A DNA stretch of 64,000 nucleotides from a virus. Below are positions 9,720-32,419 of the stretch, one piece after another. Position numbers and translations under genes: made by a program. Under the pieces are notes generated by a model. It was not told where the DNA came from, ran no database searches, and saw nothing but the letters and a program-made list of their open reading frames with translations. The number at the start of each line of letters is the position of its first letter. Position 1 is the first letter of the stretch. The stretch is taken from IMG/VR virus record IMGVR_UViG_3300046616_000314, positions 350,616-414,615 of that record; one strand, written 5' to 3'.

Positions 9720-10460
9720 ATGCAACCCCTGTTCAACGTCAACGGTCTAATGTTCTGGAATGCGAAGCAGATCAAGCTTCGTAATACATTTAAAGAATAT
9801 TTCGCTGACGGAATGCAAGCCGCACTGATCGCAGCTAACCCGGCTTGGCGTTTCGAGGAAATCGAGGCGCCGTTGCTGACCCCGCGTGATCTTCTGAACG
9901 TGAACTACACCGAAGAAGACATCTGGGTTCAAGGTGGCGAGGAAGCCCGTGAATTGGCTCTACGCCCCGAAACGACCCCTGGCAGCTACGTCTATGCCCA
10001 AAGCCTGTTAAACGGTCACACGGGCTTTAAACCGCCTCTGGTGGTGTGGCAGGCGGGTAAGTCGTTCCGGCGGGAGCAAGATCAAGTCACCAAGAACATG
10101 CGTCTCAAGGAATTCTATCAACAAGAATTCCAATGCATCTTCACGGCTGACACCCTGAACGATTATCACTCGTACATCCTTGAGCCCGTGCGCAAGATGA
10201 TTGGCGACATGATCGGTCTGCCGACTCGTCTGGTGGAATCGGATCGTCTGCCGTCTTACAGTAAGATCACCATGGATGTCGAAGTTGATAACGGCGACAA
10301 GTGGATGGAAGTGTGCAGCATTTCTCTTCGCACGGACTTCCCTGACAAGGCTCGCTTTGCGGGCAAGGGTAGCGTGCAAATTGAAAAAGATTTGCTGGTA
10401 CTTGAAGTCGCGATTGGTCTGGATCGCTGCGTTTACAATTGGGAGCAAGCTCACAAATGA
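9720..10460 (+). CDS. Class II aminoacyl-tRNA synthetase-like core (GlyRS-type)
   Basis: 246 residues with the signatures of the class II catalytic domain as in alpha2 glycyl-tRNA synthetase: LRPETTPG (81-88, compare LRPETAQG), motif 2 FRRE (116-119) followed by RLKEFYQQEFQ, EVCSISLRTD (about 197-206), and motif 3 GLDR (233-236). These residues normally bind ATP and the aminoacyl adenylate. No anticodon-binding domain follows, so it could be a stand-alone aminoacylating or adenylating enzyme, or a binding protein like the mitochondrial polymerase accessory subunit. Stop overlaps the next start (ATGA). Confidence 0.8.
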   Translation: MQPLFNVNGLMFWNAKQIKLRNTFKEYFADGMQAALIAANPAWRFEEIEAPLLTPRDLLNVNYTEEDIWVQGGEEARELALRPETTPGSYVYAQSLLNGHTGFKPPLVVWQAGKSFRREQDQVTKNMRLKEFYQQEFQCIFTADTLNDYHSYILEPVRKMIGDMIGLPTRLVESDRLPSYSKITMDVEVDNGDKWMEVCSISLRTDFPDKARFAGKGSVQIEKDLLVLEVAIGLDRCVYNWEQAHK

Positions 10461-11634: not shown

Positions 11635-12150
11635 ATGGCTAAGATCACCATCAAGACCCGAAGCAAGTACGATTCCATTAAGGAAGTGCTTCGGGATGGT
11701 GTGTTGGTTGCCGAATTCGCGTGGTCGCGTCAAAAGGTCCGTTGCATCGGTCGCCCTGATGAAATCCAATGCAAGGGCACGCTCTACGACATCAAGACGG
11801 CTACGCATTCGAGCCTGAATGGCTTTGCTTGGTTTAGCGATGTCGTCAAGCATATCAACTCCATCTACGACAACCCTGACAAAGTGAAGTTCACGTTCGT
11901 TGGAAATGATTATAGCCGTCGCGAAGGTCGCCGCGACTATAGCCCGGTTTGGAAAGCTATCGGTCTGCATGGCTGGGGTAAGCTTGAAGGCGAAGTGGGT
12001 GAATGGTGCATCCAAAATTTTGGATACGCCCCGGAAACCCGTCCAGATGCGGCAAATACAAATAGGCTTCAGCGCGGCGCCGCCTTCAACTATATCTTCA
12101 TCTTCCGTTGCGATGACGATTTTGTCGCGTTTAAGATGCGGTGGCTCTGA
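11635..12150 (+). CDS. KW-tail family protein with extra N-terminal domain
   Basis: 171 residues. Residues 1-80 form an extra domain (strands FAWSRQKVRCIG, then a helix FSDVVKHINSIYD); the family part follows with GEWCIQNFGYAPET and tail CDDDFVAFKMRWL. First gene behind the array promoter. The extra domain is not recognised. Confidence 0.85.
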   Translation: MAKITIKTRSKYDSIKEVLRDGVLVAEFAWSRQKVRCIGRPDEIQCKGTLYDIKTATHSSLNGFAWFSDVVKHINSIYDNPDKVKFTFVGNDYSRREGRRDYSPVWKAIGLHGWGKLEGEVGEWCIQNFGYAPETRPDAANTNRLQRGAAFNYIFIFRCDDDFVAFKMRWL

Positions 12151-12401
12151 TGGCGACGATCACGGCTCCCATATCTCGCTGTCTTGACGCGGTATATAAA
12201 AGCGTCGGTTGGAACGCCGTATTACCAGATACGGTGGTTGGTCTATGGTGCGTTCAACATTTGGGTTATCTTCCGAGTGTTCAATACAATTCGGGTTTCC
12301 CTTCCGAAAAGAATTGGCAATGCCACGCTGAAATGTTTGTTGAGTTTCGCAGCGAAGATGATGCCGTTGTCTTCAAAATGAAGTGGAGCGGGCGAGGATG
12401 A
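12150..12401 (+). CDS. KW-tail family protein
   Basis: 83 residues from ATG 12150 (TGATG overlap). Centre GLWCVQHLGYLPSV, tail RSEDDAVVFKMKWSGRG with three extra residues after KWS. Confidence 0.85.
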   Translation: MATITAPISRCLDAVYKSVGWNAVLPDTVVGLWCVQHLGYLPSVQYNSGFPSEKNWQCHAEMFVEFRSEDDAVVFKMKWSGRG

Positions 12402-12625
12402 CCATGCTCTACATTCCCTATGACGACACGCACCCGGTGTACAATTCGATCCATTCGGTGATCGGAGGTTTCGCCATGAGATCGACTGGACCTGTCGCCG
12501 AGTGGTGCATGAAAAACATCGGCTATCGTCCCTGGATTTATGCCAGGGGCGGACGCGATTACGGTTTCGAGATCGAGTTTCGTAATGACACGGCGGCTGC
12601 ACTCTTCAAGGTGAAGTGGCTATGA
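12398..12625 (+). CDS. KW-tail family protein
   Basis: 75 residues from ATG 12398 (ATGA overlap). Centre AEWCMKNIGYRPWI; tail RNDTAAALFKVKWL, with the EEDA box changed to DTAAA. Confidence 0.85.
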   Translation: MTMLYIPYDDTHPVYNSIHSVIGGFAMRSTGPVAEWCMKNIGYRPWIYARGGRDYGFEIEFRNDTAAALFKVKWL

Positions 12626-12849
12626 AAATGTTTATTTCCTATGCCGATGCTAAGCGTCATGATTTCTATAATCAAATGGCGGCTAGGGGTGGCTTGCATT
12701 TCATTTTTCTATCGCCGTTGTGGATATGGTGCAATGAAGTTCTAGATTACCAACCATTCATCAGTCTTCGGGTTGGTATTGATTCTGGTTTGGATGTAGA
12801 ATTCCAGACGGACGAAGATGCGCTATTGTTCAGGATGAAATGGCTATGA
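12622..12849 (+). CDS. KW-tail family protein
   Basis: 75 residues; ATG 12622 in ATGA overlap. Centre LWIWCNEVLDYQPFI (LGYYP degraded to LDYQP), tail TDEDALLFRMKWL. Confidence 0.85.
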   Translation: MKMFISYADAKRHDFYNQMAARGGLHFIFLSPLWIWCNEVLDYQPFISLRVGIDSGLDVEFQTDEDALLFRMKWL

Positions 12850-13046
12850 TAACACTCACCGTTTCTCGTGAAAAATATGTCAAAGTCGAAGGCTGGTACG
12901 TCAAGCCATATAAGGGTGATTACTTTTATGTTTGGTGTATTGAAAATCTAGGGTATTATCCAAAGACTTCGGCGTTCCTTGATTCAGTATCCGTTAGTTT
13001 CAAAACCGAGGAAGATGCAGGGGTGTTCACAATAAAATGGCTATGA
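12846..13046 (+). CDS. KW-tail family protein, shortest of block
   Basis: 66 residues, close to a minimal member: VEGWYVKP, then YVWCIENLGYYPKT, one strand, and the tail TEEDAGVFTIKWL. Useful as the core definition of the LGYYP type. Confidence 0.85.
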   Translation: MITLTVSREKYVKVEGWYVKPYKGDYFYVWCIENLGYYPKTSAFLDSVSVSFKTEEDAGVFTIKWL

Positions 13047-13252
13047 TGGTAGTAACGAAAGTTTCGATGACCGAAGCGCAGTATACGAAGTTGCTCGCAC
13101 TTGACGAGAACTGCCGGAATGCGTGCGTCGATTGGTTTCACGATTCGTTGGGCTATCGTCCTTACACACATAGCGAATGGGGTAGCCACATTTTCGAAAT
13201 GACGTTCCTGTCTGAAGAAGATGCGGCATTGTTCAAGATAAAGTTTCTCTGA
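13043..13252 (+). CDS. KW-tail family protein
   Basis: 69 residues. Centre VDWFHDSLGYRPYT with Cys replaced by Phe; tail SEEDAALFKIKFL. Stop TGA overlaps the next ATG (TGATG). Confidence 0.85.
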   Translation: MMVVTKVSMTEAQYTKLLALDENCRNACVDWFHDSLGYRPYTHSEWGSHIFEMTFLSEEDAALFKIKFL

Positions 13253-13848
13253 TGTTGACCTATTATCGTGATCCCATGACGTACAACGTCATCTGGTGCC
13301 ATGAAATCCCCTCGTGCGTGCTTGGGGAAACGCGGGATGTTATCGATATTCAAGTGTTCTTCAATGGACGGTTGGTTCATACCACTCGTACTCAAGTCAA
13401 AAGCTTGAGACGCGCGCAGGCTCAAAAATTCTTTGAAGTTCGCGTGGCTCCGCTTATGTCGGACATCGGTACGCCGTTGACGAAGCGTATCAGCGATATC
13501 GAAGGCTATAACGACCGCGATTGGATCAACCGGGCACGGACCTTCCGCTATTTCGTCCATGTCGTTGCCTGGAACGAAACGGTCATCAAGGAAGAATTCA
13601 AGGTCTGGAAATACGGTGTGTTCCTGCCGATCCACGTGCGCGACACGGAAATCCGTTCGAAGGAAATGGCGGTGATGAACGAGTACGTCGCAGCCCAGTT
13701 CCAAAAAGATGCGGCTGTCGGCTTCACGATCACACAATTTGGTCACACCGAAAATAAAACCGTGGTATACCCTTTTGGTTTCATGAGCGAGGACGATGCC
13801 ATGCTCATGATGCTGAAATTCAATGGTTTTAAGATGATTAAGTTATGA
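13252..13848 (+). CDS. KW-tail-related protein with large N-terminal region
   Basis: 198 residues. The end MSEDDAMLMMLKFNGF recalls the tail but is followed by KMIKL. Residues 1-130 are strand-rich (VIDIQVFFNGRLVHTT, FRYFVHVVAWNE) and GC-richer than the neighbours, as in the non-array genes. There is no WC centre. Possibly an unrelated gene that captured a family 3' end. Confidence 0.7.
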   Translation: MLTYYRDPMTYNVIWCHEIPSCVLGETRDVIDIQVFFNGRLVHTTRTQVKSLRRAQAQKFFEVRVAPLMSDIGTPLTKRISDIEGYNDRDWINRARTFRYFVHVVAWNETVIKEEFKVWKYGVFLPIHVRDTEIRSKEMAVMNEYVAAQFQKDAAVGFTITQFGHTENKTVVYPFGFMSEDDAMLMMLKFNGFKMIKL

Positions 13849-14165
13849 CAGATGGTGAGACAGATTTCCCAGTGAAGGCGACCGCTGATCAGTATTTTCG
13901 GATCGGCGGCTGGTATACCAAAAGTGCCATGGCGCCCGAATTGTTGATGGAACATCCAAATATGGATCAACCATTTCTTGTGTGGTGTCGGGAGGTCTTG
14001 GGTTATTATCCGCACACAGTGGACGTGTGGGAACAACAGTACGATATCTGGGAAAAGACACACGCCAATAACAATATCGATGAGGTTCCGCGTCTTGAAA
14101 TCGGTTATATCGCGTACATGCGGACGGCTGAAGACGCAGTAGAATTCAAGCTGAAGTGGTTGTGA
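13845..14165 (+). CDS. KW-tail family protein
   Basis: 106 residues. IGGWYTKS box, centre LVWCREVLGYYPHT, 30 extra residues before the tail RTAEDAVEFKLKWL. ATGA overlap with the upstream gene. Confidence 0.85.
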   Translation: MTDGETDFPVKATADQYFRIGGWYTKSAMAPELLMEHPNMDQPFLVWCREVLGYYPHTVDVWEQQYDIWEKTHANNNIDEVPRLEIGYIAYMRTAEDAVEFKLKWL

Positions 14166-14440
14166 TGGAACTTCTCGACTACACCACTAAAAATAAACTG
14201 ACCGCGAGCGAAGACACCTACATGGCTATTGACGGCTGGTTCGTCAATTCCATCTTGGGTGATTCCGATACGTTGGAAGACGAGATTTACAACGAAAACA
14301 AATTCGTCATCTGGTGCAGAGACCATTTGGGATACTACCCGTATTCGGTGACACGCGGCGAAGACGACAATGAATGTTATGTTGCGGTCTATTTCAAGAA
14401 AAGAGATCACGCCGCTTTGTTCAGACTACGGTGGCTCTGA
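14165..14440 (+). CDS. KW-tail family protein
   Basis: 91 residues, TGATG start overlap. IDGWFVNS, VIWCRDHLGYYPYS, tail KKRDHAALFRLRWL. Close sister of the next gene: MELLDYTTKNKL and MEILDKATRHKL at the N-termini. Confidence 0.85.
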   Translation: MELLDYTTKNKLTASEDTYMAIDGWFVNSILGDSDTLEDEIYNENKFVIWCRDHLGYYPYSVTRGEDDNECYVAVYFKKRDHAALFRLRWL

Positions 14441-14724
14441 TGGAAATTTTGGACAAGGCAACGCGCCACAAATTGATTGCGCCATATGACAAGTACATGG
14501 CAACCGATGGTTGGTTTGCTAAGACAATCATGGTCCCAAGTATGGAAGGTGTCGAACGATACGACGACGCTCTAGGGATTCCTTTCATCGGGTGGTGTGA
14601 ACAAGAACTGGGTTACTATCCGTACACAAAACTAATTTCCGCACGCGCGACCAATTTTCAACACATGGTGGTCTATTTTAAAAAAGCCGAACACGCTGCC
14701 ATATTCAAATTAAAATGGTGCTAG
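14440..14724 (+). CDS. KW-tail family protein
   Basis: 94 residues. TDGWFAKT, IGWCEQELGYYPYT, tail KKAEHAAIFKLKWC. The N-terminal similarity to its upstream neighbour shows a recent whole-gene duplication. TGATG start overlap. Confidence 0.85.
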   Translation: MEILDKATRHKLIAPYDKYMATDGWFAKTIMVPSMEGVERYDDALGIPFIGWCEQELGYYPYTKLISARATNFQHMVVYFKKAEHAAIFKLKWC

Positions 14725-15006
14725 ATGGATATCATGCTCCATCAAACGCCGCATAGTGTTGACGTATCAACATCACAGTACGTTCAAACGTCTGGTTGGT
14801 ATGTGACCACGTGTTTCAAGCATTGTGGCTATGACGTGTTCCATAATCCTATATATGCAGAACTTAATTCGTATGAATTTGTCAAATGGTGCAAAGAAAA
14901 ACTTGGCTACTATCCTCTCTCCGAAGATTCAAAGACGGAAGAGGTCATAACCACGTATTTCAAAACTGCCGCCGACTTACTTCATTTTCGGTTGAAATGG
15001 CTATGA
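14725..15006 (+). CDS. KW-tail family protein
   Basis: 93 residues; ATG follows the previous TAG directly with no overlap. TSGWYVTT, VKWCKEKLGYYPLS, tail KTAADLLHFRLKWL (acidic box lost). Confidence 0.85.
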   Translation: MDIMLHQTPHSVDVSTSQYVQTSGWYVTTCFKHCGYDVFHNPIYAELNSYEFVKWCKEKLGYYPLSEDSKTEEVITTYFKTAADLLHFRLKWL

Positions 15007-15293
15007 CATTTCCACAAGATCGCCACGTCGATTTGTACGATCCTGCAATCTATACGCATTCAATGTTCTTGACGAACCGCGAGTATGAGAGTGTGGAGGG
15101 ATGGTTCCGCGATCCCGAAGACGCTAGCTATGAGTTTTATGAATGGTGCGTCAGCACCTTGGGGTATTATCCCATCGTCACGCATGATTATCTGTCACCC
15201 GCGAGAAGGCTACGGGCTTCGGGGGTTAAGAGCACGTGCGGAAATTTTAAAAGTGAAGAAGATGCCATTCTGTTTAGGCTGAAATGGCTATGA
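15003..15293 (+). CDS. KW-tail family protein
   Basis: 96 residues from ATG 15003 (ATGA overlap); the longer frame is inside the upstream gene. VEGWFRDP, YEWCVSTLGYYPIV, tail KSEEDAILFRLKWL. Confidence 0.85.
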   Translation: MTFPQDRHVDLYDPAIYTHSMFLTNREYESVEGWFRDPEDASYEFYEWCVSTLGYYPIVTHDYLSPARRLRASGVKSTCGNFKSEEDAILFRLKWL

Positions 15294-15568
15294 AAAAAAC
15301 CAACAGCATGTCTTCCACGGTATTAGGCAACGATGTCGTGTATTTTGAGACACCGGGTTGGTACACCGAATGCGACCTTGCGTCGTATTCAGAAGAAAAT
15401 AATATGAAACGCTATTACCACGTGATCGACACCAAGTATGAATACGTGCGTTGGTGTCTCGACCACCTTGGCTACTATCCAACTACTCGTCTGAGCGATA
15501 CCAACGAATTCATCATCTATTTGGATAGTGATGAAGACGCTACTCTATTCAAGTTGAAATGGTTATGA
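15290..15568 (+). CDS. KW-tail family protein
   Basis: 92 residues, ATGA start overlap. TPGWYTEC, VRWCLDHLGYYPTT, tail DSDEDATLFKLKWL. Confidence 0.85.
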   Translation: MKKTNSMSSTVLGNDVVYFETPGWYTECDLASYSEENNMKRYYHVIDTKYEYVRWCLDHLGYYPTTRLSDTNEFIIYLDSDEDATLFKLKWL

Positions 15569-15834
15569 AATATATTCAGCTACGCAAACCTACCAAGCAT
15601 TGTCTTACGGCAAAATACCATCAGTACATTTTGACTGATGGATGGTTCACGTACGAAATTGCCATAGATGTCGGGCGCGAGCACGCTGAGCTTCATCCCT
15701 TTGTACAATGGTGCTTTGTTAATCTAGGGTACTATCCGTATTCTGAAGACTCCCGCGCGCATGTCGAAGATTTGATAAACATCTATTTTCGATCCCAAGC
15801 CGACGCCGCTATGTTCAAGATGAAGTGGCTCTAG
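15565..15834 (+). CDS. KW-tail family protein
   Basis: 89 residues, ATGA overlap. TDGWFTYE, VQWCFVNLGYYPYS, tail RSQADAAMFKMKWL. Confidence 0.85.
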   Translation: MKYIQLRKPTKHCLTAKYHQYILTDGWFTYEIAIDVGREHAELHPFVQWCFVNLGYYPYSEDSRAHVEDLINIYFRSQADAAMFKMKWL

Positions 15835-15835
15835 A

Positions 15836-16057
15836 ATGGGCTACATCATGACCATCCCGCGCCTAGAATACGAAGACGTTCCCGGCTGGTACGTCAATCC
15901 TAATTTGCTTGTGGGCGAATATCGGGAATGGTGTGATCTTCATCTTGGTTATTATCCGTTCACCGAACATAGTGATATTGGTGACGTGGATGGAAAAACG
16001 TACGTCATGTTTGAGTCTGAAGAAGATTCACTTTTGTTCAAGTTGAAATGGTTATGA
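15836..16057 (+). CDS. KW-tail family protein
   Basis: 73 residues; ATG 15836 one base after the previous TAG, with a second ATG four codons on. VPGWYVNP, REWCDLHLGYYPFT, tail SEEDSLLFKLKWL. Confidence 0.85.
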   Translation: MGYIMTIPRLEYEDVPGWYVNPNLLVGEYREWCDLHLGYYPFTEHSDIGDVDGKTYVMFESEEDSLLFKLKWL

Positions 16058-16290
16058 AGACTTACCCAGTATCGATATGGAAGTATTACGATACTGACGG
16101 TTGGTTGATAACCGAAACCCGTGATGAGATATTGCCGGATATTGTTCTGCATTCAGAATACCATGAATGGTGCATGAAACATCTTGGCTATTACCCAATG
16201 ACGTTATATACTGATTCGTCAGACGATTATGTTGACGTGGAATTTGAAACGGACGACCACGCGGCATTGTTTATATTGAAGTGGGGATAA
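16054..16290 (+). CDS. KW-tail family protein
   Basis: 78 residues, ATGA overlap. TDGWLITE, HEWCMKHLGYYPMT, tail ETDDHAALFILKWG. Confidence 0.85.
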   Translation: MKTYPVSIWKYYDTDGWLITETRDEILPDIVLHSEYHEWCMKHLGYYPMTLYTDSSDDYVDVEFETDDHAALFILKWG

Positions 16291-16562
16291 TGCCGCCTAT
16301 CGACGTGACATACATTCACCGAGACCTTCCGCATCTTATGGTGTGGAAGAAGGCGGATGATATCACCCGTGGCGGCGGAATAAGCACGGAATTTGTCATG
16401 TCCGATTATTTCCGCCAATGGTGCATGGAAAACGTCGGCTATCTTCCCGAAGTGTGGATGGATAACCTTCGACTACGTAATTCGATGGATGAGCATTTCT
16501 GGGTGAAGTTCATCTTCGATGATCCAGAGCACGCTATGTTGTTCAGGTTCAAATTCCAATGA
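16290..16562 (+). CDS. KW-tail family protein
   Basis: 90 residues; TAATG overlap chosen as start. No GWY box. Centre RQWCMENVGYLPEV, tail DDPEHAMLFRFKFQ. Confidence 0.85.
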   Translation: MPPIDVTYIHRDLPHLMVWKKADDITRGGGISTEFVMSDYFRQWCMENVGYLPEVWMDNLRLRNSMDEHFWVKFIFDDPEHAMLFRFKFQ

Positions 16563-16813
16563 CCCGCAACGAAACGATCTACTTCAACCCAGAGCAAACG
16601 CCGTTTCGGTATAGCCGTAAGCGGGCTCTTGTCATTGGGCTAGCCAGCCACAATGCATCGCGGTTTGGGCACCTTACAGATGAAGCCAATGCCATTACGA
16701 AATGGATGGATACCAATGGCATCATGTGGTGGTGGCGTGGGATGCTGGGGAATTACACCACGATTGGAATTTATGAAAAAGACTTTCCTTATTTCAAATT
16801 GAAATGGCTATGA
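16559..16813 (+). CDS. KW-tail family protein, degenerate
   Basis: 84 residues. Centre TKWMDTNGIMWWW has no Cys or LGYYP, and the acidic box is reduced to YEKDFPYFKLKWL. N-terminus RKRALVIGLASHNASR is unique in the block. Confidence 0.8.
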   Translation: MTRNETIYFNPEQTPFRYSRKRALVIGLASHNASRFGHLTDEANAITKWMDTNGIMWWWRGMLGNYTTIGIYEKDFPYFKLKWL

Positions 16814-17043
16814 CCGAACTAGTGATCGAATATGACACCTTCATGGATGTCGATGGCTGGTTCATCGACCCACGGTATCGGCGTAACGATCCGTTCACGT
16901 CATGGTGCATGGAAAATCTTGGCTATTATCCCAAGGCAGAAATGCGCTCTACGGCACCGCCGACCGAGAGTTATTCTACCGGAGTGGTTGGACATTTCCT
17001 AAGCGACGATCATGCCGCCATGTTCAAGTTGAAATGGCTATGA
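16810..17043 (+). CDS. KW-tail family protein
   Basis: 77 residues, ATGA overlap. VDGWFIDP, TSWCMENLGYYPKA, tail LSDDHAAMFKLKWL. Confidence 0.85.
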   Translation: MTELVIEYDTFMDVDGWFIDPRYRRNDPFTSWCMENLGYYPKAEMRSTAPPTESYSTGVVGHFLSDDHAAMFKLKWL

Positions 17044-17264
17044 TTACTGTCCCGGTTGAATATCACGTGTATTATGAGATTGAAGGCTGGTACGTCAATC
17101 AACATGAGCCGGATACTGAGGACGACGCCCATTTTAGCAAATGGTGTATGAACACTCTTGGTTATTATCCATGGATTCACTACTCACGAAGCGGCTTCGG
17201 TGAGCTTACCGCAAATTTCGAGACTGCCGAAGACGCAGCAGTATTCAGGTTGAAATGGCTATGA
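17040..17264 (+). CDS. KW-tail family protein
   Basis: 74 residues, ATGA overlap. IEGWYVNQ, SKWCMNTLGYYPWI, tail ETAEDAAVFRLKWL. Confidence 0.85.
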   Translation: MITVPVEYHVYYEIEGWYVNQHEPDTEDDAHFSKWCMNTLGYYPWIHYSRSGFGELTANFETAEDAAVFRLKWL

Positions 17265-17491
17265 CCAGTATTCTCGTTCGGTATGGGACCTATGCACGAG
17301 TCGATGGCTGGTACATGGATTGGGAATTTTCAAAGCCCGAAGAGGCTTTTGTACTCTGGTGCGATAAGCATCTAGGTTATTATCCCAAAACTACATCTGT
17401 TCGCAACACATTGAATGGCAGTACGGAATTTGTTAGAGTAGAATTAGAAAACGATGACCATGCAATGTTGTTCAAGTTGAAGTGGCTATGA
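17261..17491 (+). CDS. KW-tail family protein
   Basis: 76 residues, ATGA overlap. VDGWYMDW, VLWCDKHLGYYPKT, tail ENDDHAMLFKLKWL. Confidence 0.85.
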   Translation: MTSILVRYGTYARVDGWYMDWEFSKPEEAFVLWCDKHLGYYPKTTSVRNTLNGSTEFVRVELENDDHAMLFKLKWL

Positions 17492-17859
17492 GAATTCGTC
17501 AGCTTTCCTTCCCGGTTGTGAACAGCAAAGAGGTTGTCACCTTCTATTTTGCTGCGATCCCCACGCGCCTAATCTTCGGCGACGTGAACGCCCAGGATTG
17601 GTTGAGACAGAACTGTGGGTTTTGTAATACTGAACTGATTTTCAATCCCGTTGAGCGTGCCATTCGTAAAGACTTCTACGAAAGCAATGTCATGTGGGGT
17701 TTGATTATAGACGCAAACGATACAGAAACATCGGGCTATGGGCGTATGTTCTATAAATTGTGTGAGCCTGATATGTCCGAATATCTCACGCGCAGTTATT
17801 GCATTTGGTTTCGGCGCGAAGAAGATGCGGCAATGTTCAAGATGAAATATCATGGATAG
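17488..17859 (+). CDS. KW-tail family protein, long divergent
   Basis: 123 residues. Centre QDWLRQNCGFCNTEL, 40 extra residues, tail RREEDAAMFKMKYHG. No GWY box. Overlaps the next gene by eight bases. Confidence 0.8.
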   Translation: MRIRQLSFPVVNSKEVVTFYFAAIPTRLIFGDVNAQDWLRQNCGFCNTELIFNPVERAIRKDFYESNVMWGLIIDANDTETSGYGRMFYKLCEPDMSEYLTRSYCIWFRREEDAAMFKMKYHG

Positions 17860-18379
17860 AATTACGATCATGGGTCCGACCGAGACCCACGAGCTTTCCG
17901 GGTATTCCCTGAATCACGCGATTGCCTATGTCTCCAATTTCATATCGCTTCGCGAACACGTTATCAAATGGTTGAACACCTATCAGATCAACGTGACCGT
18001 TCAAGTTATCGCTTCGCAGCAATACAACGCCAAGAAAGAGCGGCTTGATGCACGTAACCAAGGCTATGACAAAATCGGACGTAAGATCATCTTGCGTTTC
18101 GAGCGTGATTCCGAAGCGTTGCTATTCTGGTATCACCATGATCTGAAACACACGGTTCATTTTTGCGACAAGTTGGGTCAGCACATTCATTATGGTGATC
18201 GCCGGTATTATTTCACCGCACATATTGAAGACTGGATTGCGGAAAATGATATCCTTGTCCCGCTGATTGATCGAACAGCGAAGACATTTCAAGAAGGCGT
18301 GACCGAAGTCGGATATCACTATGATATCTGGTTTGCTAAGGACGAACATGCTACAATGTTTAAATTGAAATGGGGCTGA
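17852..18379 (+). CDS. Double KW-tail family protein
   Basis: 175 residues that read as two family units fused: unit 1 has HVIKWLNTYQINVTV and the degenerate tail ERDSEALLFWYHH (about 90-102); unit 2 has EDWIAENDILVPLI and tail AKDEHATMFKLKWG. Fusion needs only loss of a stop at a junction. Last family gene of the plus block. Confidence 0.85.
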   Translation: MDRITIMGPTETHELSGYSLNHAIAYVSNFISLREHVIKWLNTYQINVTVQVIASQQYNAKKERLDARNQGYDKIGRKIILRFERDSEALLFWYHHDLKHTVHFCDKLGQHIHYGDRRYYFTAHIEDWIAENDILVPLIDRTAKTFQEGVTEVGYHYDIWFAKDEHATMFKLKWG

Positions 18380-18381: not shown

Positions 18382-18696
18382 ATGTTCGTTGATTACGAAA
18401 AAATCGGCACGTACTTGATGATTATGGCTGGCATTGGGATGCTGTTCCTTGTGCCTCTCATCTTCATCGCAGGCGACCAATCCTTTGACGATGCCGTTGC
18501 AAAGCAAATGGTCGTTGATCGCGGCTACACCAGTGTTCGAATCGACCAACCGGCGCCTATGCAATGCGCTGGACGCTATCAGACCAACTCACGCTATTTT
18601 GTGGCGAAGCGTACAGATGGACGATGGGCACGGGGTGTATTATGCGCCGGAACGTTCAATCAGAACGTCGATGTCAAAGAATACAAAGTCTACTAG
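18382..18696 (+). CDS. Small membrane-anchored protein
   Basis: 104 residues from ATG 18382, right after the array's last stop; an ATG four codons earlier overlaps that gene. One clear membrane segment, LMIMAGIGMLFLVPLIFIAG (about 11-30), then a polar domain with two Cys (MQCAGRY, VLCAGTF) that could pair if exported. Last gene before the convergence point. Confidence 0.75.
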   Translation: MFVDYEKIGTYLMIMAGIGMLFLVPLIFIAGDQSFDDAVAKQMVVDRGYTSVRIDQPAPMQCAGRYQTNSRYFVAKRTDGRWARGVLCAGTFNQNVDVKEYKVY

Positions 18697-18908
18697 CCGT
18701 ACTTCAGCTTCAGCATAGCCGCTGCATCTTCGTTCTTATGATACATCTGTATTCTGAGCATTCGGGGATCGCCGAAGCTATAGCCCCAACGTGTTCCAAA
18801 ATTTGACGCCATGAACTGATATAGTTCATCGGTCAACATGAAATCGTCTGCATTGCCTGCCATTGGCAAATACACGGTGTGGAAACACTCGTCAGTAGCG
18901 GTTTTCAT
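18693..18908 (-). CDS. KW-tail family protein
   Basis: 71 residues from ATG 18908, which makes the ATGA overlap (an earlier ATG at 18920 is inside the neighbour). Centre LYQFMASNFGTRWGYS, tail KNEDAAAMLKLKYG. Sister of 19261-19494 (LYMYMSQTFELAWSYS). Last gene of the minus block; overlaps the convergent gene by four bases. Confidence 0.8.
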   Translation of the reverse strand: MKTATDECFHTVYLPMAGNADDFMLTDELYQFMASNFGTRWGYSFGDPRMLRIQMYHKNEDAAAMLKLKYG

Positions 18909-19261
18909 TGCGTAACCCATAGTAAGCGCATAAGCGTCATATCTTCTTCACTAGTGAAGAAAAACCGATGTAGTTTCGGATGAATCGGGTCTTCAGCCAT
19001 GATGAAATACGTCCAAGGCTGAAACGTAATCTTTTTCGGGACAATATTCAACATATTATCGAGAAAGCTTTTGTTGCTGGTATGGTATTCGATATCAAAC
19101 GTGAATAGTTCTTTGTGTTCAAGCATGTCATTAATATACGACATGATCCAATCTATGTTTTCATTCGTGGCGGTAATGTAATGGAAGCTCAAGCGTCGCA
19201 AACCTTGTTCGGCGGCGCGAGCATATACTTCATCAAGGTCTTTGGAGGTTATTTTAGGCAT
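18905..19261 (-). CDS. KW-tail family protein
   Basis: 118 residues. Helix NIDWIMSYINDML in place of WC; tail TSEEDMTLMRLLWVTQ, where the KW has moved to LLW. The start abuts the upstream stop with a one-base overlap. Confidence 0.8.
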   Translation of the reverse strand: MPKITSKDLDEVYARAAEQGLRRLSFHYITATNENIDWIMSYINDMLEHKELFTFDIEYHTSNKSFLDNMLNIVPKKITFQPWTYFIMAEDPIHPKLHRFFFTSEEDMTLMRLLWVTQ

Positions 19262-19494
19262 CAGCCGAACTTCATCTTTACAAGCGCAATGTCATCATCC
19301 GTGCCCGCAAAAGTGCTGATGGTGATGATTTTGGTCAAAGGATTCATCGAATAGCTCCAAGCTAATTCGAACGTTTGGCTCATATACATATACAGTTCGT
19401 AAGACAAGAACATGGTTCTGCTATGCCGAGTGTCGGTTGTGCGCTCACTGAACGCCAGTTCGATCTTACGGGTATTGATAATGTGATACTTCAT
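19261..19494 (-). CDS. KW-tail family protein
   Basis: 77 residues, tail GTDDDIALVKMKFG. N-terminus MKYHIINTRKIELAF; ATGA overlap. Pairs with 18693-18908 by its centre. Confidence 0.8.
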   Translation of the reverse strand: MKYHIINTRKIELAFSERTTDTRHSRTMFLSYELYMYMSQTFELAWSYSMNPLTKIITISTFAGTDDDIALVKMKFG

Positions 19495-19733
19495 AGGAAT
19501 TTCAGCTTGAATAGCATCGCGATCTCTTCATCATTGAAGTTGATGATGAAACGTTTGCGGTTCGACAATAGCAATCCCGTCACGAATTGAAACCCTGGTG
19601 GGGCAATGCCGTGGTCGTTGAACCATTCCAGCACGTGCGGACGGTATTCCCAACGCGCAGACGGTCCAACGATGAAAATCTTATCATCGGTGTCTGACGC
19701 CCATTTGCGGGCTGATTCGTGAATGACCTTCAT
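19491..19733 (-). CDS. KW-tail family protein
   Basis: 80 residues from ATG 19733 (ATGA overlap). Centre LEWFNDHGIAPPGF, Cys replaced by Phe; tail NDEEIAMLFKLKFL. Confidence 0.85.
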   Translation of the reverse strand: MKVIHESARKWASDTDDKIFIVGPSARWEYRPHVLEWFNDHGIAPPGFQFVTGLLLSNRKRFIINFNDEEIAMLFKLKFL

Positions 19734-19945
19734 AGCCATTTCATCTTGAATGCAACGGCTTCTTCACTCGATAAGAATTCGAGGACGATCATGTCTTTGG
19801 TGGCACTTTTAGTGATAGATGGAAGGCTGATGCCATTGGCATTGCACCATTGCTTCACTTCGCCCGAAAGTCTCGCCTGCCACGAATTGTAGTAGACGAT
19901 TTCTTTGGCGGCGGGCAAATGATAGGAAAAGGCGATTGTCTTCAT
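19730..19945 (-). CDS. KW-tail family protein
   Basis: 71 residues. Centre KQWCNANGISLPSI, tail SSEEAVAFKMKWL. Near the minimal NxIxxP type. Confidence 0.85.
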   Translation of the reverse strand: MKTIAFSYHLPAAKEIVYYNSWQARLSGEVKQWCNANGISLPSITKSATKDMIVLEFLSSEEAVAFKMKWL

Positions 19946-20175
19946 AGGAATTTCAGCTTGAACATGGCTGCATCGTCCTCACTAGCGAACGTCAACACAA
20001 AGCCGTTTGCAGTCTTACCAGTATACCGAAGTTCTCGAAAACAAATCAATTTAATTCCGGCGGCGAGAAGTTGCGTTCTCCCCTCCCTGGTAAGACGGCG
20101 ATTGTAGGACCCATGTTCGACGCTCAAAAAAGTGAATTCAATGAACTGCGAATATGTAACAGTAAGGTCGCTCAT
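19942..20175 (-). CDS. KW-tail family protein
   Basis: 77 residues from ATG 20175 (ATGA overlap). Centre RTQLLAAGIKLICF lacks WC; tail ASEDDAAMFKLKFL. Confidence 0.8.
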   Translation of the reverse strand: MSDLTVTYSQFIEFTFLSVEHGSYNRRLTREGRTQLLAAGIKLICFRELRYTGKTANGFVLTFASEDDAAMFKLKFL

Positions 20176-20420
20176 GACCATTTCATCTTGAACATCATGG
20201 CATCCTCATCCGTATAAAATGAGAATACGTACATATAGGACAACACCACTTCGCCGGGAAAGTGTGCAGCGTTGAATGCTGTCGTGTTGATACGCGGTTC
20301 TCGCGCCAAATTCTTTCCACACCAGATGCGAATGTCTTTGCGCAAAACATCGTGATCGTGCGATTGGATATTAATGTAATCGCGAATGTTGTACGGGTGG
20401 ATATAGACACAATTACTCAT
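20172..20420 (-). CDS. KW-tail family protein
   Basis: 82 residues from ATG 20420. Centre IRIWCGKNLAREPRI, tail YTDEDAMMFKMKWS. Confidence 0.85.
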   Translation of the reverse strand: MSNCVYIHPYNIRDYINIQSHDHDVLRKDIRIWCGKNLAREPRINTTAFNAAHFPGEVVLSYMYVFSFYTDEDAMMFKMKWS

Positions 20421-21103
20421 GACGCCCATTTCATCTTGTAGATAAGGCGGGCTTCGTCCGTGGGGAGGAAGAGGAAGTTTTCTTTGCTATTCCAATTCCA
20501 AATGAATTCGCATTTGTGTTGGATGATGAGATCGTAAAGGGCGCCGTCGAACGCTTTGTCAGGCGTATTATATTCCGACTGTTCCTTGATCCAACTCGAC
20601 GTACACCGGGTTGGGTCTAGTAGCGGCGTGGGGACGTATTCGAAGCCGATTCTATTCCACGTGTATTGCCCTGGACGTTCACCGTAGCCGAGACGTTGAA
20701 CAAGATCGTAGGTCAGGTGAACATACGTTTCACCAAATGCTTCATCGTATTTTGCCAAGAAGGCGCACTGATCCGGTGTGACCGGATTGGCGAATTCAAG
20801 ATGGAAAATGGTGACGTGTTTTGGATTCTTGCGGTTCAGGGGACGATTGATGTTCGTCCGACGCAGCAACGGCAATTGCCCGAAGTGTTCAAGAAACCAC
20901 GCTTGATAATCGGGTGCGATCTGCGACCAATACCAATTGGTGCTCCCGATGTCGATTCGTTCGTCGTCATGCCCGGCATGTTCACCGAACCAGAAAGCGG
21001 CGAGATTATTCGAGATAAGAATCTCTACCGTAGGCTTAACTTCAGGCAAGCGCGTATGATTGCTGCCTACCTTGATGACCGTGATATTGGTAAGTTTTCC
21101 CAT
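20417..21103 (-). CDS. Double KW-tail family protein, longest copy
   Basis: 228 residues. Unit 1: YQAWFLEHFGQLPLL then FANPVTPDQCAFLAKY, a decayed tail. Unit 2: YDLIIQHKCEFIW with tail PTDEARLIYKMKWAS. Preceded by a 32-base gap holding an imperfect hairpin, so it may have its own control. Confidence 0.8.
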   Translation of the reverse strand: MGKLTNITVIKVGSNHTRLPEVKPTVEILISNNLAAFWFGEHAGHDDERIDIGSTNWYWSQIAPDYQAWFLEHFGQLPLLRRTNINRPLNRKNPKHVTIFHLEFANPVTPDQCAFLAKYDEAFGETYVHLTYDLVQRLGYGERPGQYTWNRIGFEYVPTPLLDPTRCTSSWIKEQSEYNTPDKAFDGALYDLIIQHKCEFIWNWNSKENFLFLPTDEARLIYKMKWAS

Positions 21104-21105
21104 GC

Positions 21106-21137
21106 GTAGACAATAAACGAAAATACGTTCGTTGTCT
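21106..21137 (-). other. Imperfect hairpin between two array genes
   Basis: On the minus strand TAGACAACGAACG and CGTTTATTGTCTA pair over about 13 positions with one mismatch, around a TATTTT loop. No T run follows, so an RNA-processing or attenuation role is more likely than termination. It lies in one of the few true gaps in the array. Confidence 0.5.
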
Positions 21138-21465
21138 AGTGCAAGTATACGTGCAAGAACTTCATCTTGAACATCGCCGCCATGTCTTCATCGGGAAAAG
21201 GAATGACGTATGTAATAGGGTGCTTTACTTTAGTACCATTGATTCGAGCCAACTGGTCTGCAAAGGCTGTCTCGCCCGTATCGGGTTCTTCGATGCCCAG
21301 TGATGCCAGAACCTCTTCGGACTGTTCTGGGGGCACTTCAGCAATCTCTACACCCCGTTCGTCGCACCATTCTTGCACGGTGCGATAAAGCTCGCGACGT
21401 TTCGCCCAACCGTTGAAGTGGGTCAGCTTGAATACTTGTTCTTCTGTGAGATAGAGATAAAACAT
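21136..21465 (-). CDS. KW-tail family protein with acidic insertion
   Basis: 109 residues. Centre QEWCDERGVEIAEV, then a 30-residue acidic insertion (SEEVLASLGIEEPDTGE), tail PDEDMAAMFKMKFLHVYLH with four extra residues. TATAAATA lies five bases before the start. Confidence 0.85.
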   Translation of the reverse strand: MFYLYLTEEQVFKLTHFNGWAKRRELYRTVQEWCDERGVEIAEVPPEQSEEVLASLGIEEPDTGETAFADQLARINGTKVKHPITYVIPFPDEDMAAMFKMKFLHVYLH

Positions 21466-21469
21466 GAGA

Positions 21470-21477
21470 TATTTATA
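21470..21477 (-). promoter_or_regulatory. Exact match to T4 late promoter box
   Basis: TATAAATA on the minus strand, four bases before ATG 21465. It includes the stop codon context of the upstream gene (CTA TAA), so it may be chance; the short distance to the start also argues against it. Confidence 0.3.
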
Positions 21478-21733
21478 GCCATTTCAATTTGAACAATGTC
21501 GCGTCATCTTCAGATTGGAATTCAATACTGTAGCTATTGATAGTTTTGTCTTCGGGGTCTTCATCAGACCAATTAAGGTGCGTGGTGATCTTGATGTCAT
21601 ATCCCAGGTTGTCGAGACACCATTCACAAACTTCTTTGCCATGGATAGCAGGACGATAGTCGCGACCAATATAGCTCCATTCACAGAGTAAGGTGTAGCC
21701 CTTCTCTTTGGTCAAATGCAATCGCGAAGTCAT
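21473..21733 (-). CDS. KW-tail family protein
   Basis: 86 residues, start 21733 by ATGA overlap. Centre CEWCLDNLGYDIKI, close to the plus-block type; tail QSEDDATLFKLKWL. Confidence 0.85.
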   Translation of the reverse strand: MTSRLHLTKEKGYTLLCEWSYIGRDYRPAIHGKEVCEWCLDNLGYDIKITTHLNWSDEDPEDKTINSYSIEFQSEDDATLFKLKWL

Positions 21734-22050
21734 AGCCATTTCATCTTGAACATCAGTAGATCGGCTGCGGTCTTGAATTTCAAAGAATAGTAATGGGTGG
21801 CGTCCGAATGTTTGGGAGCTTTGTGACGCAGAAATAGCGGAACAAGTTCTAGATTTTGATCACACCATTCTTCAATATTTGCGGCTAGTCTATAGCTATT
21901 GCACAAACGGTTGCCGACCATGCGAAAAACAAAATAGTCTCGCCAGTTCGCGCTTGGAACATCGATGGTAATTTTGTTTCGCACTGATATTGGCACCTTG
22001 ATTACGTGCTTCAGGTCTGATGCGCGAAGGTTTCTGGGATACTCAGTCAT
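21730..22050 (-). CDS. KW-tail family protein
   Basis: 106 residues. Centre EEWCDQNLELVPLF, tail KTAADLLMFKMKWL. Longer N-terminal region (MTEYPRNLRASDLKHVIKVP). Confidence 0.85.
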   Translation of the reverse strand: MTEYPRNLRASDLKHVIKVPISVRNKITIDVPSANWRDYFVFRMVGNRLCNSYRLAANIEEWCDQNLELVPLFLRHKAPKHSDATHYYSLKFKTAADLLMFKMKWL

Positions 22051-22316
22051 AGAAATTTCAACTTGAACTGGACCAATTGTTCGTCAGTGGAATCAGGCAA
22101 ACAAATCAGCCATTCGTTACCAATCATTCCGCTATTACACGTGATGTACGGAAGGGGATCGAACCCGGCGATCTTACACCATTCGATTTCATCTGGCTTG
22201 GTGATGTTGTACTCAAGTTCTTTCCCCTTCAGAACCGAGACACCATAGGGCGACCACGTTGCGAAACGAGTGAGCAACTGAGTAATGTCGATGTCGATAT
22301 AGCGATCTTGTTTCAT
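22047..22316 (-). CDS. KW-tail family protein
   Basis: 89 residues. Centre IEWCKIAGFDPLPY, tail STDEQLVQFKLKFL (acidic box altered). ATGA overlap. Confidence 0.85.
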   Translation of the reverse strand: MKQDRYIDIDITQLLTRFATWSPYGVSVLKGKELEYNITKPDEIEWCKIAGFDPLPYITCNSGMIGNEWLICLPDSTDEQLVQFKLKFL

Positions 22317-22564
22317 AGCCACTTCAACTTGAACAGGGTCGCATCTTCTTCAGATCGAAATACCAGCTTGAGTTTTCCTACGTCTGGTTGATCAGCTTCT
22401 TGAATCCGGGGCGTAGCAATCTTGTTTTCAACACACCATTTTTTGATAGGAGGTACCCAACGGTATATGAAATATGGATTCCCCTCACTGGGATGATAAT
22501 CAGGATTATGCTCTGAAAGGGTCAGAGGAATCAATGCGATATATTGACAAACGAGTGCAGTCAT
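22313..22564 (-). CDS. KW-tail family protein
   Basis: 83 residues. Centre KKWCVENKIATPRI, tail RSEEDATLFKLKWL: a consensus member of the NxIxxP type. Confidence 0.85.
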   Translation of the reverse strand: MTALVCQYIALIPLTLSEHNPDYHPSEGNPYFIYRWVPPIKKWCVENKIATPRIQEADQPDVGKLKLVFRSEEDATLFKLKWL

Positions 22565-22779
22565 AGCCACTTCATCTTGAACATCAACGCGGTTTCTTCG
22601 TCATCGAACACCAGTCGGAATTCTTCGTCGTCCCAGGACAGAGCGGGCATGGTAATCTTGTTGGTGGCGCACCATGACGCGACTTGCGGTCTCCAATTAC
22701 ACACATAGTTACCGTCTTGTGGGTAAGCGTCGATAACCAATTTAAATATCTGCATTTGTGGATAAAGATATTCAGTCAT
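22561..22779 (-). CDS. KW-tail family protein
   Basis: 72 residues. Centre ASWCATNKITMPAL, tail DDEETALMFKMKWL. ATGA overlaps both sides. Confidence 0.85.
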   Translation of the reverse strand: MTEYLYPQMQIFKLVIDAYPQDGNYVCNWRPQVASWCATNKITMPALSWDDEEFRLVFDDEETALMFKMKWL

Positions 22780-22994
22780 AGCCACTTCAGCTTGAATAAC
22801 GTTGCGTCTTCATCGTTGCGATATCCTATCCGAAACTCTTGATCGTCTATTATGCTTTGGCGCAAGTATGGGATGATGATATCGTTGGCGATACACCACT
22901 TACTGACAGCCTCGTGCCAATACCACATGCCTGAAGGTCTATTACAGCGGCATAGGTCTTTCAGTTGCGTGTATGTGTAGTAGATGAGGATCAT
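22776..22994 (-). CDS. KW-tail family protein
   Basis: 72 residues. Centre SKWCIANDIIIPYL, tail RNDEDATLFKLKWL. Layout equal to the neighbour at 22561, suggesting shared recent ancestry. Confidence 0.85.
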   Translation of the reverse strand: MILIYYTYTQLKDLCRCNRPSGMWYWHEAVSKWCIANDIIIPYLRQSIIDDQEFRIGYRNDEDATLFKLKWL

Positions 22995-23218
22995 CGCCAT
23001 TTCAGTTTGAAGAGTGCCGCTTCTTCTTCGGTGTCGATAAACATATCATGAACCCAATCTGTAATATAGCCCACACGACTATAAATTGGACAAGAATCTA
23101 TATTATATACTATGCGATTATCGAAGCACCATTTCTCCATTTCGGGAAGCAACTCCCATTCATTCCAATCAAATTGGGTGACTTCGCGGTCGTATAGACT
23201 GATACGGGTACGGACCAT
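22991..23218 (-). CDS. KW-tail family protein
   Basis: 75 residues from ATG 23218 (TGATG overlap with the CPIC microprotein). Centre EKWCFDNRIVYNID, tail DTEEEAALFKLKWR. Confidence 0.85.
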   Translation of the reverse strand: MVRTRISLYDREVTQFDWNEWELLPEMEKWCFDNRIVYNIDSCPIYSRVGYITDWVHDMFIDTEEEAALFKLKWR

Positions 23219-23373
23219 CACACACCGGGTATGTGTCTAGAGTGATATTCCCGTTGATAATCGCTACACTGATCAAAATAGCCCGTCATGCAGATGGGAC
23301 ATTCGGGTTGATAATGTTCCTCTTCTTGCGAAGACCCTTGCCACCAATTCCAGATAGCCTTGAGAATTTTCAT
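23218..23373 (-). CDS. Hidden 51-residue CPIC microprotein
   Basis: ATG 23373 overlaps the upstream family stop (ATGA) and the TGA overlaps the next ATG, so it is fully spliced into the cassette chain. Sequence starts MKILKAIWNWWQGSSQ and contains CPICMTGYFDQC: CxxC plus a further Cys and several His (EEEHYQ, YHSRH), a possible small zinc-binding knuckle. No KW tail. Not a family member. Confidence 0.75.
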   Translation of the reverse strand: MKILKAIWNWWQGSSQEEEHYQPECPICMTGYFDQCSDYQREYHSRHIPGV

Positions 23374-23624
23374 AGCCATTTGAACCTAAACATCACGGCA
23401 TCTTCGGGAGATTTGAACAGATAGCCGATATGTCTCGATGGGTGAGCCGCATTAGTGAACTCAGGGAAATATCCTAGACTATCCACGCACCATTCATAGA
23501 TGGTTTCTTCAAACGCTATGTATGCATCGGGACCGGCTGTCTTGTTATTACTATGCCACGTCAATAGGTCGCGGATGCCTTCAAAGACAACATGACAATC
23601 AATGATTTCGAAATTATAGGTCAT
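23370..23624 (-). CDS. KW-tail family protein
   Basis: 84 residues from ATG 23624. Centre YEWCVDSLGYFPEF (plus-block type within the minus block), tail KSPEDAVMFRFKWL. Confidence 0.85.
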   Translation of the reverse strand: MTYNFEIIDCHVVFEGIRDLLTWHSNNKTAGPDAYIAFEETIYEWCVDSLGYFPEFTNAAHPSRHIGYLFKSPEDAVMFRFKWL

Positions 23625-23902
23625 AGCCACTTCAGCTTGAATAGCATCGCAGTCTCTTCGTCACATTCCAGATGGACATAACCAATAACGGTTTCCGGCT
23701 GTGGATGATCCGCAAGCGCGCCCGTGATAAAGAATTCTTCTATAATAAAGAGAATGGGTGCATTGCCGATGCCGTTCTTTTTGCACCATCGTATTTGGGA
23801 TAAATTCTGTAAAACATAGCCACGATCTACCGTATCCCAAAGATATTCGGAACAGCGTTCAAGACCAAAGATTTCGTAATAGGTCATCGGAAGTTTCGTC
23901 AT
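23621..23902 (-). CDS. KW-tail family protein
   Basis: 93 residues. YVLQNLSQIRWCKKNGIGNAP and tail CDEETAMLFKLKWL. Recent duplicate of the next upstream gene, which has the same order of motifs (SGYALRNQGQLEWC). Confidence 0.85.
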   Translation of the reverse strand: MTKLPMTYYEIFGLERCSEYLWDTVDRGYVLQNLSQIRWCKKNGIGNAPILFIIEEFFITGALADHPQPETVIGYVHLECDEETAMLFKLKWL

Positions 23903-24156
23903 AGGAACTTCATCTTAAACATCATCGCAACTTCCATGTCGTTGGTACCTATATAGACATAGGCGACAAAATTATCCCTTCGGTACATTTCTGTATCAAC
24001 GATCAACTCCGGTGGTCCTATGATGCCATTCTTATAGCACCATTCCAACTGACCCTGGTTGCGCAAAGCATACCCGGATATTGTGTTCTCCCAAAGCCAG
24101 TCTTCGAATTTACGGGATACAAAAACTTCATCATATGTTACGGCTATTTTGATCAT
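23899..24156 (-). CDS. KW-tail family protein
   Basis: 85 residues. Centre LEWCYKNGIIGPPEL, tail NDMEVAMMFKMKFL. Duplicate partner of 23621-23902: both have MTYYEIF/VTYDEVF at the N-terminus. Confidence 0.85.
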   Translation of the reverse strand: MIKIAVTYDEVFVSRKFEDWLWENTISGYALRNQGQLEWCYKNGIIGPPELIVDTEMYRRDNFVAYVYIGTNDMEVAMMFKMKFL

Positions 24157-24404
24157 AGCCATTTCATCTTGAACAAAATGAAGTCTTCTTCAGTCCCGCC
24201 AGGGAACACCAATATCCATTCACCGGTTGGTATCGAATGCAAATGAGGACGGGCGATTTTATGCTCTCTAAACCAATTCAATTCGGGATGACGCACGGGC
24301 GCGAATGGTCGATCACCTGTTCGCCCATGGCGAGGCGCCATATGATCGCGCTCCCAATGCCCGATCTTATCCATGACAACTTCGTGGGGGATTGGAAAAT
24401 CCAT
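24153..24404 (-). CDS. KW-tail family protein
   Basis: 83 residues from ATG 24404 (TGATG overlap). Centre LNWFREHKIARPHL (Cys to Phe), tail GTEEDFILFKMKWL. Confidence 0.85.
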   Translation of the reverse strand: MDFPIPHEVVMDKIGHWERDHMAPRHGRTGDRPFAPVRHPELNWFREHKIARPHLHSIPTGEWILVFPGGTEEDFILFKMKWL

Positions 24405-24631
24405 CAACAAAACTTCAGTTTAAAAGCGATAGCTTGTTCTTCGGTGCAATCCAACGTTATGCTCCAAATCGAGGTTTGCATATCGCAGGTAGCCAATATC
24501 GTATCAAAAATTTCGTTCTTCGTACACCATTGTTTGATGTCGGCTCTGTCGATGATATAGGCTGTCAAATTATCATTCCAGTAATACACACCGCGCAGAA
24601 CATCATTGGTGTGTTGAACATGAATATTCAT
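24404..24631 (-). CDS. KW-tail family protein
   Basis: 75 residues. Centre KQWCTKNEIFDTIL, tail CTEEQAIAFKLKFC. Confidence 0.85.
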   Translation of the reverse strand: MNIHVQHTNDVLRGVYYWNDNLTAYIIDRADIKQWCTKNEIFDTILATCDMQTSIWSITLDCTEEQAIAFKLKFC

Positions 24632-24903
24632 AGCCATTTAATTCGCAACAACAGCAGTTGATCTTCGGTTGCATCTTCCCAGAATAAAACCCAAGAATCG
24701 GGGTCCGAACGTAGATAAAACAAACACGGTATCGTGGGTGGTCCTTGTAGCTTACACCATTCAAGAATGTCGTCATCATTCAACGGATAGGCGGTGCGAG
24801 CATCAGGAAACAAACTTTGAACATACGTGGTAGTATCGTCATTCCGATACCAACCACGCCCCATATTGGCGACCTGATGATGGGTAAAATTTGCTATAGC
24901 CAT
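24628..24903 (-). CDS. KW-tail family protein
   Basis: 91 residues. Here the ATGA is lost (ATAG), so the start must be ATG 24903 inside the upstream KW codons, a 10-base overlap. Centre LEWCKLQGPPTIPC, tail ATEDQLLLLRIKWL. Confidence 0.8.
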   Translation of the reverse strand: MAIANFTHHQVANMGRGWYRNDDTTTYVQSLFPDARTAYPLNDDDILEWCKLQGPPTIPCLFYLRSDPDSWVLFWEDATEDQLLLLRIKWL

Positions 24904-25145
24904 TTCAGTTTGAACACCGTTGCTTGTTCATCGTCATAGAATCTCAAGAAATATCGAATACGATATTTTACACCACCTTTGATAGGACAGGGTGTTAAAA
25001 ATTCTTGCTCGCGATCAATGTCAGGAATGACAATAGTATTTTTCACACACCATGTGTTGATAGCCCGGCTTAAAGTCGTCGTGGTGTTATTGCCATGAGT
25101 CAGCATCATGAGTTTATAGAATGAAACCTCTATTCTCACATCCAT
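24894..25145 (-). CDS. KW-tail family protein
   Basis: 83 residues from ATG 25145; GTG 25139, which overlaps the upstream stop as GTGA, is an alternative. Centre NTWCVKNTIVIPDI, tail YDDEQATVFKLKWL. Confidence 0.8.
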   Translation of the reverse strand: MDVRIEVSFYKLMMLTHGNNTTTTLSRAINTWCVKNTIVIPDIDREQEFLTPCPIKGGVKYRIRYFLRFYDDEQATVFKLKWL

Positions 25146-25399
25146 TTGAGTTTAAACGCCGTAGCGTCTTCCTCTGTCTCGAATGATGCGAAGTATCTGC
25201 GATTGGTTACGGACCAATTAGGCTCAAGCATGACAAGCGGAGGCTTGGACAGATTTAATGCACACCATGCCTCAATATGAGGATGAAATTCGGTTCGCAG
25301 TCTAAGCGGATGCCCCGACATCTGGCTATTGATCAGATTTCGATACTCAGGCGTTGGATAAGGATAGGTGTGACAATCGACCATTATACTTACAGCCAT
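25136..25399 (-). CDS. KW-tail family protein
   Basis: 87 residues, ATG 25399 within the neighbour's KW codons (10-base overlap). Centre EAWCALNLSKPPLV, tail ETEEDATAFKLKWM. Confidence 0.8.
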   Translation of the reverse strand: MAVSIMVDCHTYPYPTPEYRNLINSQMSGHPLRLRTEFHPHIEAWCALNLSKPPLVMLEPNWSVTNRRYFASFETEEDATAFKLKWM

Positions 25400-28717: not shown

Positions 28718-28723
28718 GCGCCC

Positions 28724-28751
28724 ATTTTAGCACATGACGAGAATATCTCAA
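28724..28751 (-). promoter_or_regulatory. Possible sigma70-like promoter inside the array
   Basis: Minus strand TTGAGA (28746-28751), 16 bases, TAAAAT (28724-28729), just before ATG 28717. It lies in a 30-base gap after gene 28748-28942 and could split the minus array into two transcription units. Confidence 0.5.
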
Positions 28752-30205: not shown

Positions 30206-30206
30206 C

Positions 30207-31396: not shown

Positions 31397-31397
31397 A

Positions 31398-32221: not shown

Positions 32222-32265
32222 TAGACTAAGTAGTTGTGTGGCATTGTGTCACCTAGGAGATTATC

Positions 32266-32412: not shown

Positions 32413-32419
32413 TAATACT

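Follow-up and report, generated by a model that had tools for sequence, protein, structure and literature searches.

Overlaps of the ATGA and TGATG type between consecutive genes are usual in co-translated phage operons. An old question is whether short sequences at the edges of genes steer the mosaicism of phage genomes or whether selection alone sorts it, and both models are found in the literature (PMC3233612). In mycobacteriophage Island3, the neighbouring genes 67 and 68 have ~18 C-terminal residues in common, and recombination at this stretch has been proposed to add or remove one gene (PMC3029335). The window analysed here is a stretch of 64,000 nucleotides (bases 350616-414615 of the 561,116-base jumbo-phage record IMGVR_UViG_3300046616_000314), in which 23 consecutive plus-strand genes at 11635-18379 carry an FKLKWL-like C-terminal tail. 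As in Island3, neighbouring genes share C-terminal residues; however, Island3 presents one case with ~50 bp of DNA similarity, whereas the present family comprises hundreds of genes with diverged DNA. As in boundary-sequence-directed mosaicism, the units of exchange, seen in relatives from other lineages, are whole genes with edges at gene junctions. However, the junction here is coding, consisting of a C-terminal tail kept as protein; its DNA is not conserved beyond the protein requirement, and the edges share only ~6-12 exact bases. The stop/start overlaps are of the same types as in translationally coupled genes, with the difference that the overlapping codons belong to a common protein tail; coupling itself is a prediction from the sequence. 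The family makes the question of mosaicism countable, since a single genome supplies hundreds of gene edges for comparison and the relatives span many distances.

The explanation that we favour, at a probability of roughly two in three, is that these genes belong to a very large family of small proteins whose tail is kept for the protein, and that whole genes are inserted, lost or replaced at the stop/start overlaps. The junctions would then be the ends of family members, in which a common C-terminal strand and amphipathic helix would be kept by protein need while the bodies would diverge until most are unalignable. The ATGA and TGATG overlaps would pack the genes so that each forms a closed unit ending at the next ATG, and a whole gene with its tail could therefore be gained, deleted or substituted. 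Turnover of whole genes, with its edges at the tails, is observed in close relatives of another lineage, and the same turnover probably takes place in the window's phage. The exchange presumably requires only limited homology, with selection for an intact frame, tail and start doing the sorting, and the proteins may act through something that reads the common tail.

Almost every junction of the array has the tail-into-overlap layout described in the sequence-only reading that preceded this work. Twenty-two of the 23 genes run into the next member, whose start is offset by -8 to +1 relative to the end of the stop; the commonest overlap is ATGA (-4), followed by TGATG or TAATG (-1). Among 156 member-to-member junctions in the sampled genome, 98 lie at -4 (ATGA) and 21 at -1. 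The nearly identical word of about 20 bases claimed for the junctions was an overstatement. The last 18 coding bases of the 23 genes agree at a mean of 11.1 of 18 positions, and 25 of the 253 pairs reach 16/18, with one pair identical. For the longest exact match in register around the stop, the median is 6 bases, and 20 bases are reached by one pair in 253. The hexamer AAATGG is missing from all tails of two distantly related phages, G021 and G022.

Codon comparisons indicate that the tail is conserved at the protein level, and selection on its DNA as a recombination site is not supported by them. In 31 orthologue pairs of G021 and G022, the amino-acid identity is 90% in the tail vs. 57% in the body, and the codon identity at identical residues is 0.50 in the tail and 0.51 in the body. 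Synonymous sites in the tail codons are thus as diverged as the rest of the gene, which is the outcome that the sequence-only reading itself had named as refuting its claim that the C-terminal conservation is partly selection on DNA. A single-copy orthologue in nine phages has an invariant DAMMFKLR(W) tail although no next gene overlaps it, and its codon variability in the tail about equals that of the remainder, on few codons; the pattern used to find these loci fixes residues and leaves most synonymous bases free. Other tails that lack a close downstream gene also carry the motif. Swapping codons among members of the window's genome at fixed residue and position gave a pairwise tail similarity of 0.485 +/- 0.003, compared with 0.491 observed. 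By distance class, a clear excess was found only for neighbours less than 400 bp apart (0.542 vs. 0.483), as tandem duplication predicts. Gene conversion, considered because of tail-to-tail DNA matches of 55-79 bp between genes with unrelated bodies, was dropped since this test showed no excess. Codon use is not wholly neutral, with AAG/AGG favoured at -3, TTG/CTG at -2 and CTA at +1; the last preference follows from the ATGA overlap. The lysine at -1, the core of the word, shows ordinary codon use. In coupled tails, pairing with the 16S ribosomal RNA end is stronger than in synonymous-random sequences (z -6.9), and start-site selection is a plausible cause of the bias at -3 and -2. An in-frame upstream ATG within AAATGG was rejected as its cause, the bias being much alike with AAA, with AAG and where the tryptophan is lacking.

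The family is far larger than the sequence-only reading indicated. Membership was assigned by a profile covering the 18 residues that end at the tryptophan, and the counts depend on the score threshold; the scores are bimodal with two well-separated groups, and none of 599 shuffled tails reached the threshold. The window holds 101 members, and 232 were counted in ~270 kb, slightly under half of the genome, a half picked for having hits, so that the density does not extrapolate to the remainder. The consensus of the tail is F-x-[ST]-[DE]-[DE]-[DH]-A-x-[LM]-F-[KR]-[LM]-K-W, and its most constant positions are the basic and W/F residues near the end. With the tails removed, 184 of the 232 bodies have no partner at an expectation value (E) below 1e-5. 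The remaining bodies fall into 13 clusters, of which the two largest have 18 members (mainly in the plus block) and 8 (at the genome start). In 32 of 93 cases the closest partner of a body belongs to the adjacent gene, compared with 2.0 expected.

No close relative of the window's phage was found in IMG/VR searched with one window member (tblastn confirmation with alignment). Relatives from other lineages with the same family, located by degenerate DNA patterns of the tail, were therefore compared. Orthologues of G021 and G022 outside the clusters are mostly colinear, and turnover is concentrated in one cluster. In the arrays of G030 and G031 (~75% DNA identity), most orthologues keep their order, apart from one additional gene and one slot in which the gene is replaced. 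At an RlmN-like locus, six relatives have islands of ~0.5 to 1.3 kb with different tail-genes between the same flanks; the order is apparently different in two of the six, and the affinities of the first gene conflict with those of the flanks. Close pairs show the edges of such changes. The pair G028 and G027 (98.6% identical) has two divergent blocks. The first begins within the RlmN-like gene and reaches into a tail, where identity returns at CATGGCTATGA; the second runs from just past one tail stop to the next tail, where identity returns at CGCTGGATGTGA. Between G035 and G036 (93-97%), a block extends from the stop of the upstream gene to CTATGA and contains genes X-Y in one phage and W-X' in the other; both alleles are intact, and several synonymous sites separate the tail of Y from that of X'. 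These three blocks all lie in arrays of tail-genes, and each has its end no more than 25 bases from a tail stop. The exact shared runs at the edges are ~6-12 bases, within an imperfect match over ~20. These comparisons support, at the sequence level, cassette-edge turnover in which the unit of exchange is a whole gene with its own tail and the edge is the stop/start overlap. The predicted in-frame gain, loss and replacement of whole genes at tail/ATG junctions was thus found in other jumbo phages. Indels and swaps of whole genes exist, and block edges in arrays fall at tails, but much of the gene order is colinear, and shuffling is therefore slow. Other blocks in close pairs fall away from tail-genes, e.g. 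a 1-kb one-gene insertion, and no divergent block was present in G029/G027 or G037/G038. This insertion (G035 46862-47855, L239-L241) is absent from G036, and its gene (46921-47835) has a likeness, judged by eye only, to homing endonucleases.

Five close pairs yielded 11 blocks with 22 edges, of which 4 lie at tail stops, where 0.8% of positions fall (P 2.7e-5 for random placement), and the downstream edges within arrays are at tails in 3 of 3 cases (P 9e-4); both P values were calculated once the pattern was known. Their post hoc nature is one of several points that weigh against the proposed explanation. The informative blocks number three, from two pairs, all of them metagenome contigs and none from the lineage of the window's phage. 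If the tail is conserved only as protein, the edges should be equally precise at other gene ends, and their precision was measured at tails only. The codons at -3 and -2 are biased beyond body usage. The pairing effect is similar in the few uncoupled tails (-0.44 vs. -0.55), and the role of the start site is therefore only plausible.

The suggestion of the sequence-only reading that the tail word is a recombination site, selected partly as DNA, with homologous exchange between junctions driving the shuffling, is improbable. The excess of edges at tails in close relatives and the codon bias at -3 and -2 fit it, but the synonymous divergence of the tails, the ordinary codons of the core lysine, the lack of shared tail haplotypes in the permutation test and the absence of AAATGG from G021 and G022 do not. 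Nor do the short exact runs at the edges. Ordinary homologous recombination, in its usual description, needs longer runs than these, so that either help comes from imperfect matches between tails, or exchange is random and selection for an intact frame, tail and start acts as a filter. The filter is placed ahead since the tail DNA has no extra conservation, although the present sequences do not distinguish exchange steered by short homology from untargeted exchange followed by selection. That the C-terminal helix doubles as a cassette edge, with hundreds of single-domain genes kept interchangeable by a common tail overlapping the start of the next gene and short imperfect tail matches steering their in-frame exchange, is a doubtful extension. 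A misjoining of contigs at short tail words during assembly is hardly credible: every close pair consists of metagenome contigs, but both alleles at the edges are intact genes, and the exact runs are shorter than the words usually employed in assembly.

A much stronger contender, with close to an even chance, is that these are ordinary phage operons, in which overlaps serve translational coupling, arrays arise by tandem duplication, and edges lie at gene ends because broken genes are lost. The adjacency of nearest body partners, the regular spacing left by old tandem expansion in the genome-start array and the ribosomal RNA pairing of coupled tails agree with it, and phage modules commonly have their edges at gene ends (PMC3233612). 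It overlaps with the proposed explanation but leaves unexplained why one tail is common to unalignable bodies. The persistence of the tail on 184 bodies without a recognisable partner, and the constancy of its basic and W/F residues, could alternatively mean that the tail serves as a signal for sorting, docking or turnover and is not primarily a structural helix. We regard this as possible but unlikely; the predicted models place the tail inside a folded domain, and no partner is known.

The AlphaFold2 model of the member at 16804-17043 (predicted local distance difference test score, pLDDT, 89.5) has the order strand-helix-helix-strand-strand-helix, in which the tail forms the last strand and the C-terminal helix, the latter predicted with confidence. 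The model of an unrelated member, the single-copy one from nine other jumbo-phage contigs, is less confident overall (pLDDT 71.9) and has the same element order in its C-terminal part. Both predicted models thus show the order of a type I KH domain. However, no significant structural match to KH was obtained. KH domains head one search with a best E of 0.11 and listed template modelling (TM) scores below 0.5, and the matches of a second search were likewise not significant; hence no biochemical function is claimed. None of the members tested had a convincing match in Pfam or PHROGs. No described tail family in jumbo phages was found in the literature searched, and a search by the tail letters gave nothing relevant. 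The family accounts for much of the small-gene content in some of the biggest phages known, is shared across jumbo phages and is not recognised in Pfam or PHROGs. The tail is present in many IMG/VR contigs, including records of 608, 524, 465 and 462 kb. Sinorhizobium phage Phosso has 23 matches, fewer than here and with other tail residues (FKLRW, FKLTW); its tail-genes are annotated as hypothetical in the regions read. A second dense array, of 25 tail-genes in 8.4 kb, lies in L205 (G039, 154 kb), and two tail-genes occur on a contig filed as a bacterial genome (L186, NZ_LYMM01000033.1, Novosphingobium guangzhouense SA925). Tail-genes are absent from the 25 kb around the RlmN-like gene of one Caulobacter and one Brevundimonas jumbo phage.

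The first gene of the plus-strand array (11635-12150) ends in VAFKMRWL, and the next ATG is at 12150. It is followed by the genes at 12150-12401 (FKMKWSGRG), 12398-12625 (FKVKWL), 12622-12849 (FRMKWL, with an upstream in-frame ATG at 12616), 12846-13046 (FTIKWL) and 13043-13252 (FKIKFL). The seventh (13252-13848) is longer and has the extended tail MMLKFNGFKMIKL. The tail ends in FKLKWL in the genes at 13845-14165, 15290-15568, 15836-16057, 16559-16813, 16810-17043 (modelled from the upstream ATG at 16804) and 17261-17491, and in FRLKWL at 14725-15006, 15003-15293 and 17040-17264. Variants are found at 14165-14440 (FRLRWL), 14440-14724 (FKLKWC), 15565-15834 (FKMKWL), 16054-16290 (FILKWG), 16290-16562 (FRFKFQ) and 17488-17859 (FKMKYHG). 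The last gene (17852-18379, FKLKWG) is followed by a gene without the tail.

More than 50 further tail-genes occupy the minus strand at 18693-35865. Two of them, both stop-to-stop frames, had been taken as copies of plus-block type that fit shuffling. For 25641-25946 this assignment is borne out, its best body partner being the plus-block gene ending at 16290; 23370-23660 does have the WC-LGYxP body, but its best partner sits in the array at the genome start. That array (L098 562-2253, minus strand) contains 8 related tail-genes in a regular register of ~240 bases and represents an old tandem expansion. The relation between subgroup members at 27.2 and 33.8 kb, also cited for shuffling, exists (27171 and 33769) but is weak (E 7e-5). 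A second pair, 26693 and 32457, has the same order at a distance of ~6 kb. Thus 26693/27171/27407 and 32457/33461/33769 on the minus strand show two subgroup relations ~6 kb apart with order and strand kept, perhaps through an old segmental duplication.

A DNA search of a cultured phage collection with the plus-strand array gave no match. Judged by an SbcC-like protein, the cultured phages most closely related to this one are Phosso (40%) and Agrobacterium phage Atu_ph07 (38.5%). The ends of the 561-kb record (L098 1-187 and L111 19814-20000) overlap by 187 bases at 99.5%; the record is therefore probably complete, and circular or terminally redundant. Upstream of the array, the window contains a class II aminoacyl-tRNA synthetase-like gene (9720-10460, Pfam PF00587, E 7.9e-10), and a gene annotated as histidyl-tRNA synthetase lies in a region of Phosso with tail-genes. 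A C-5 cytosine DNA methyltransferase gene is located at 37531-38457 of the window (Pfam PF00145, E 5.2e-90).

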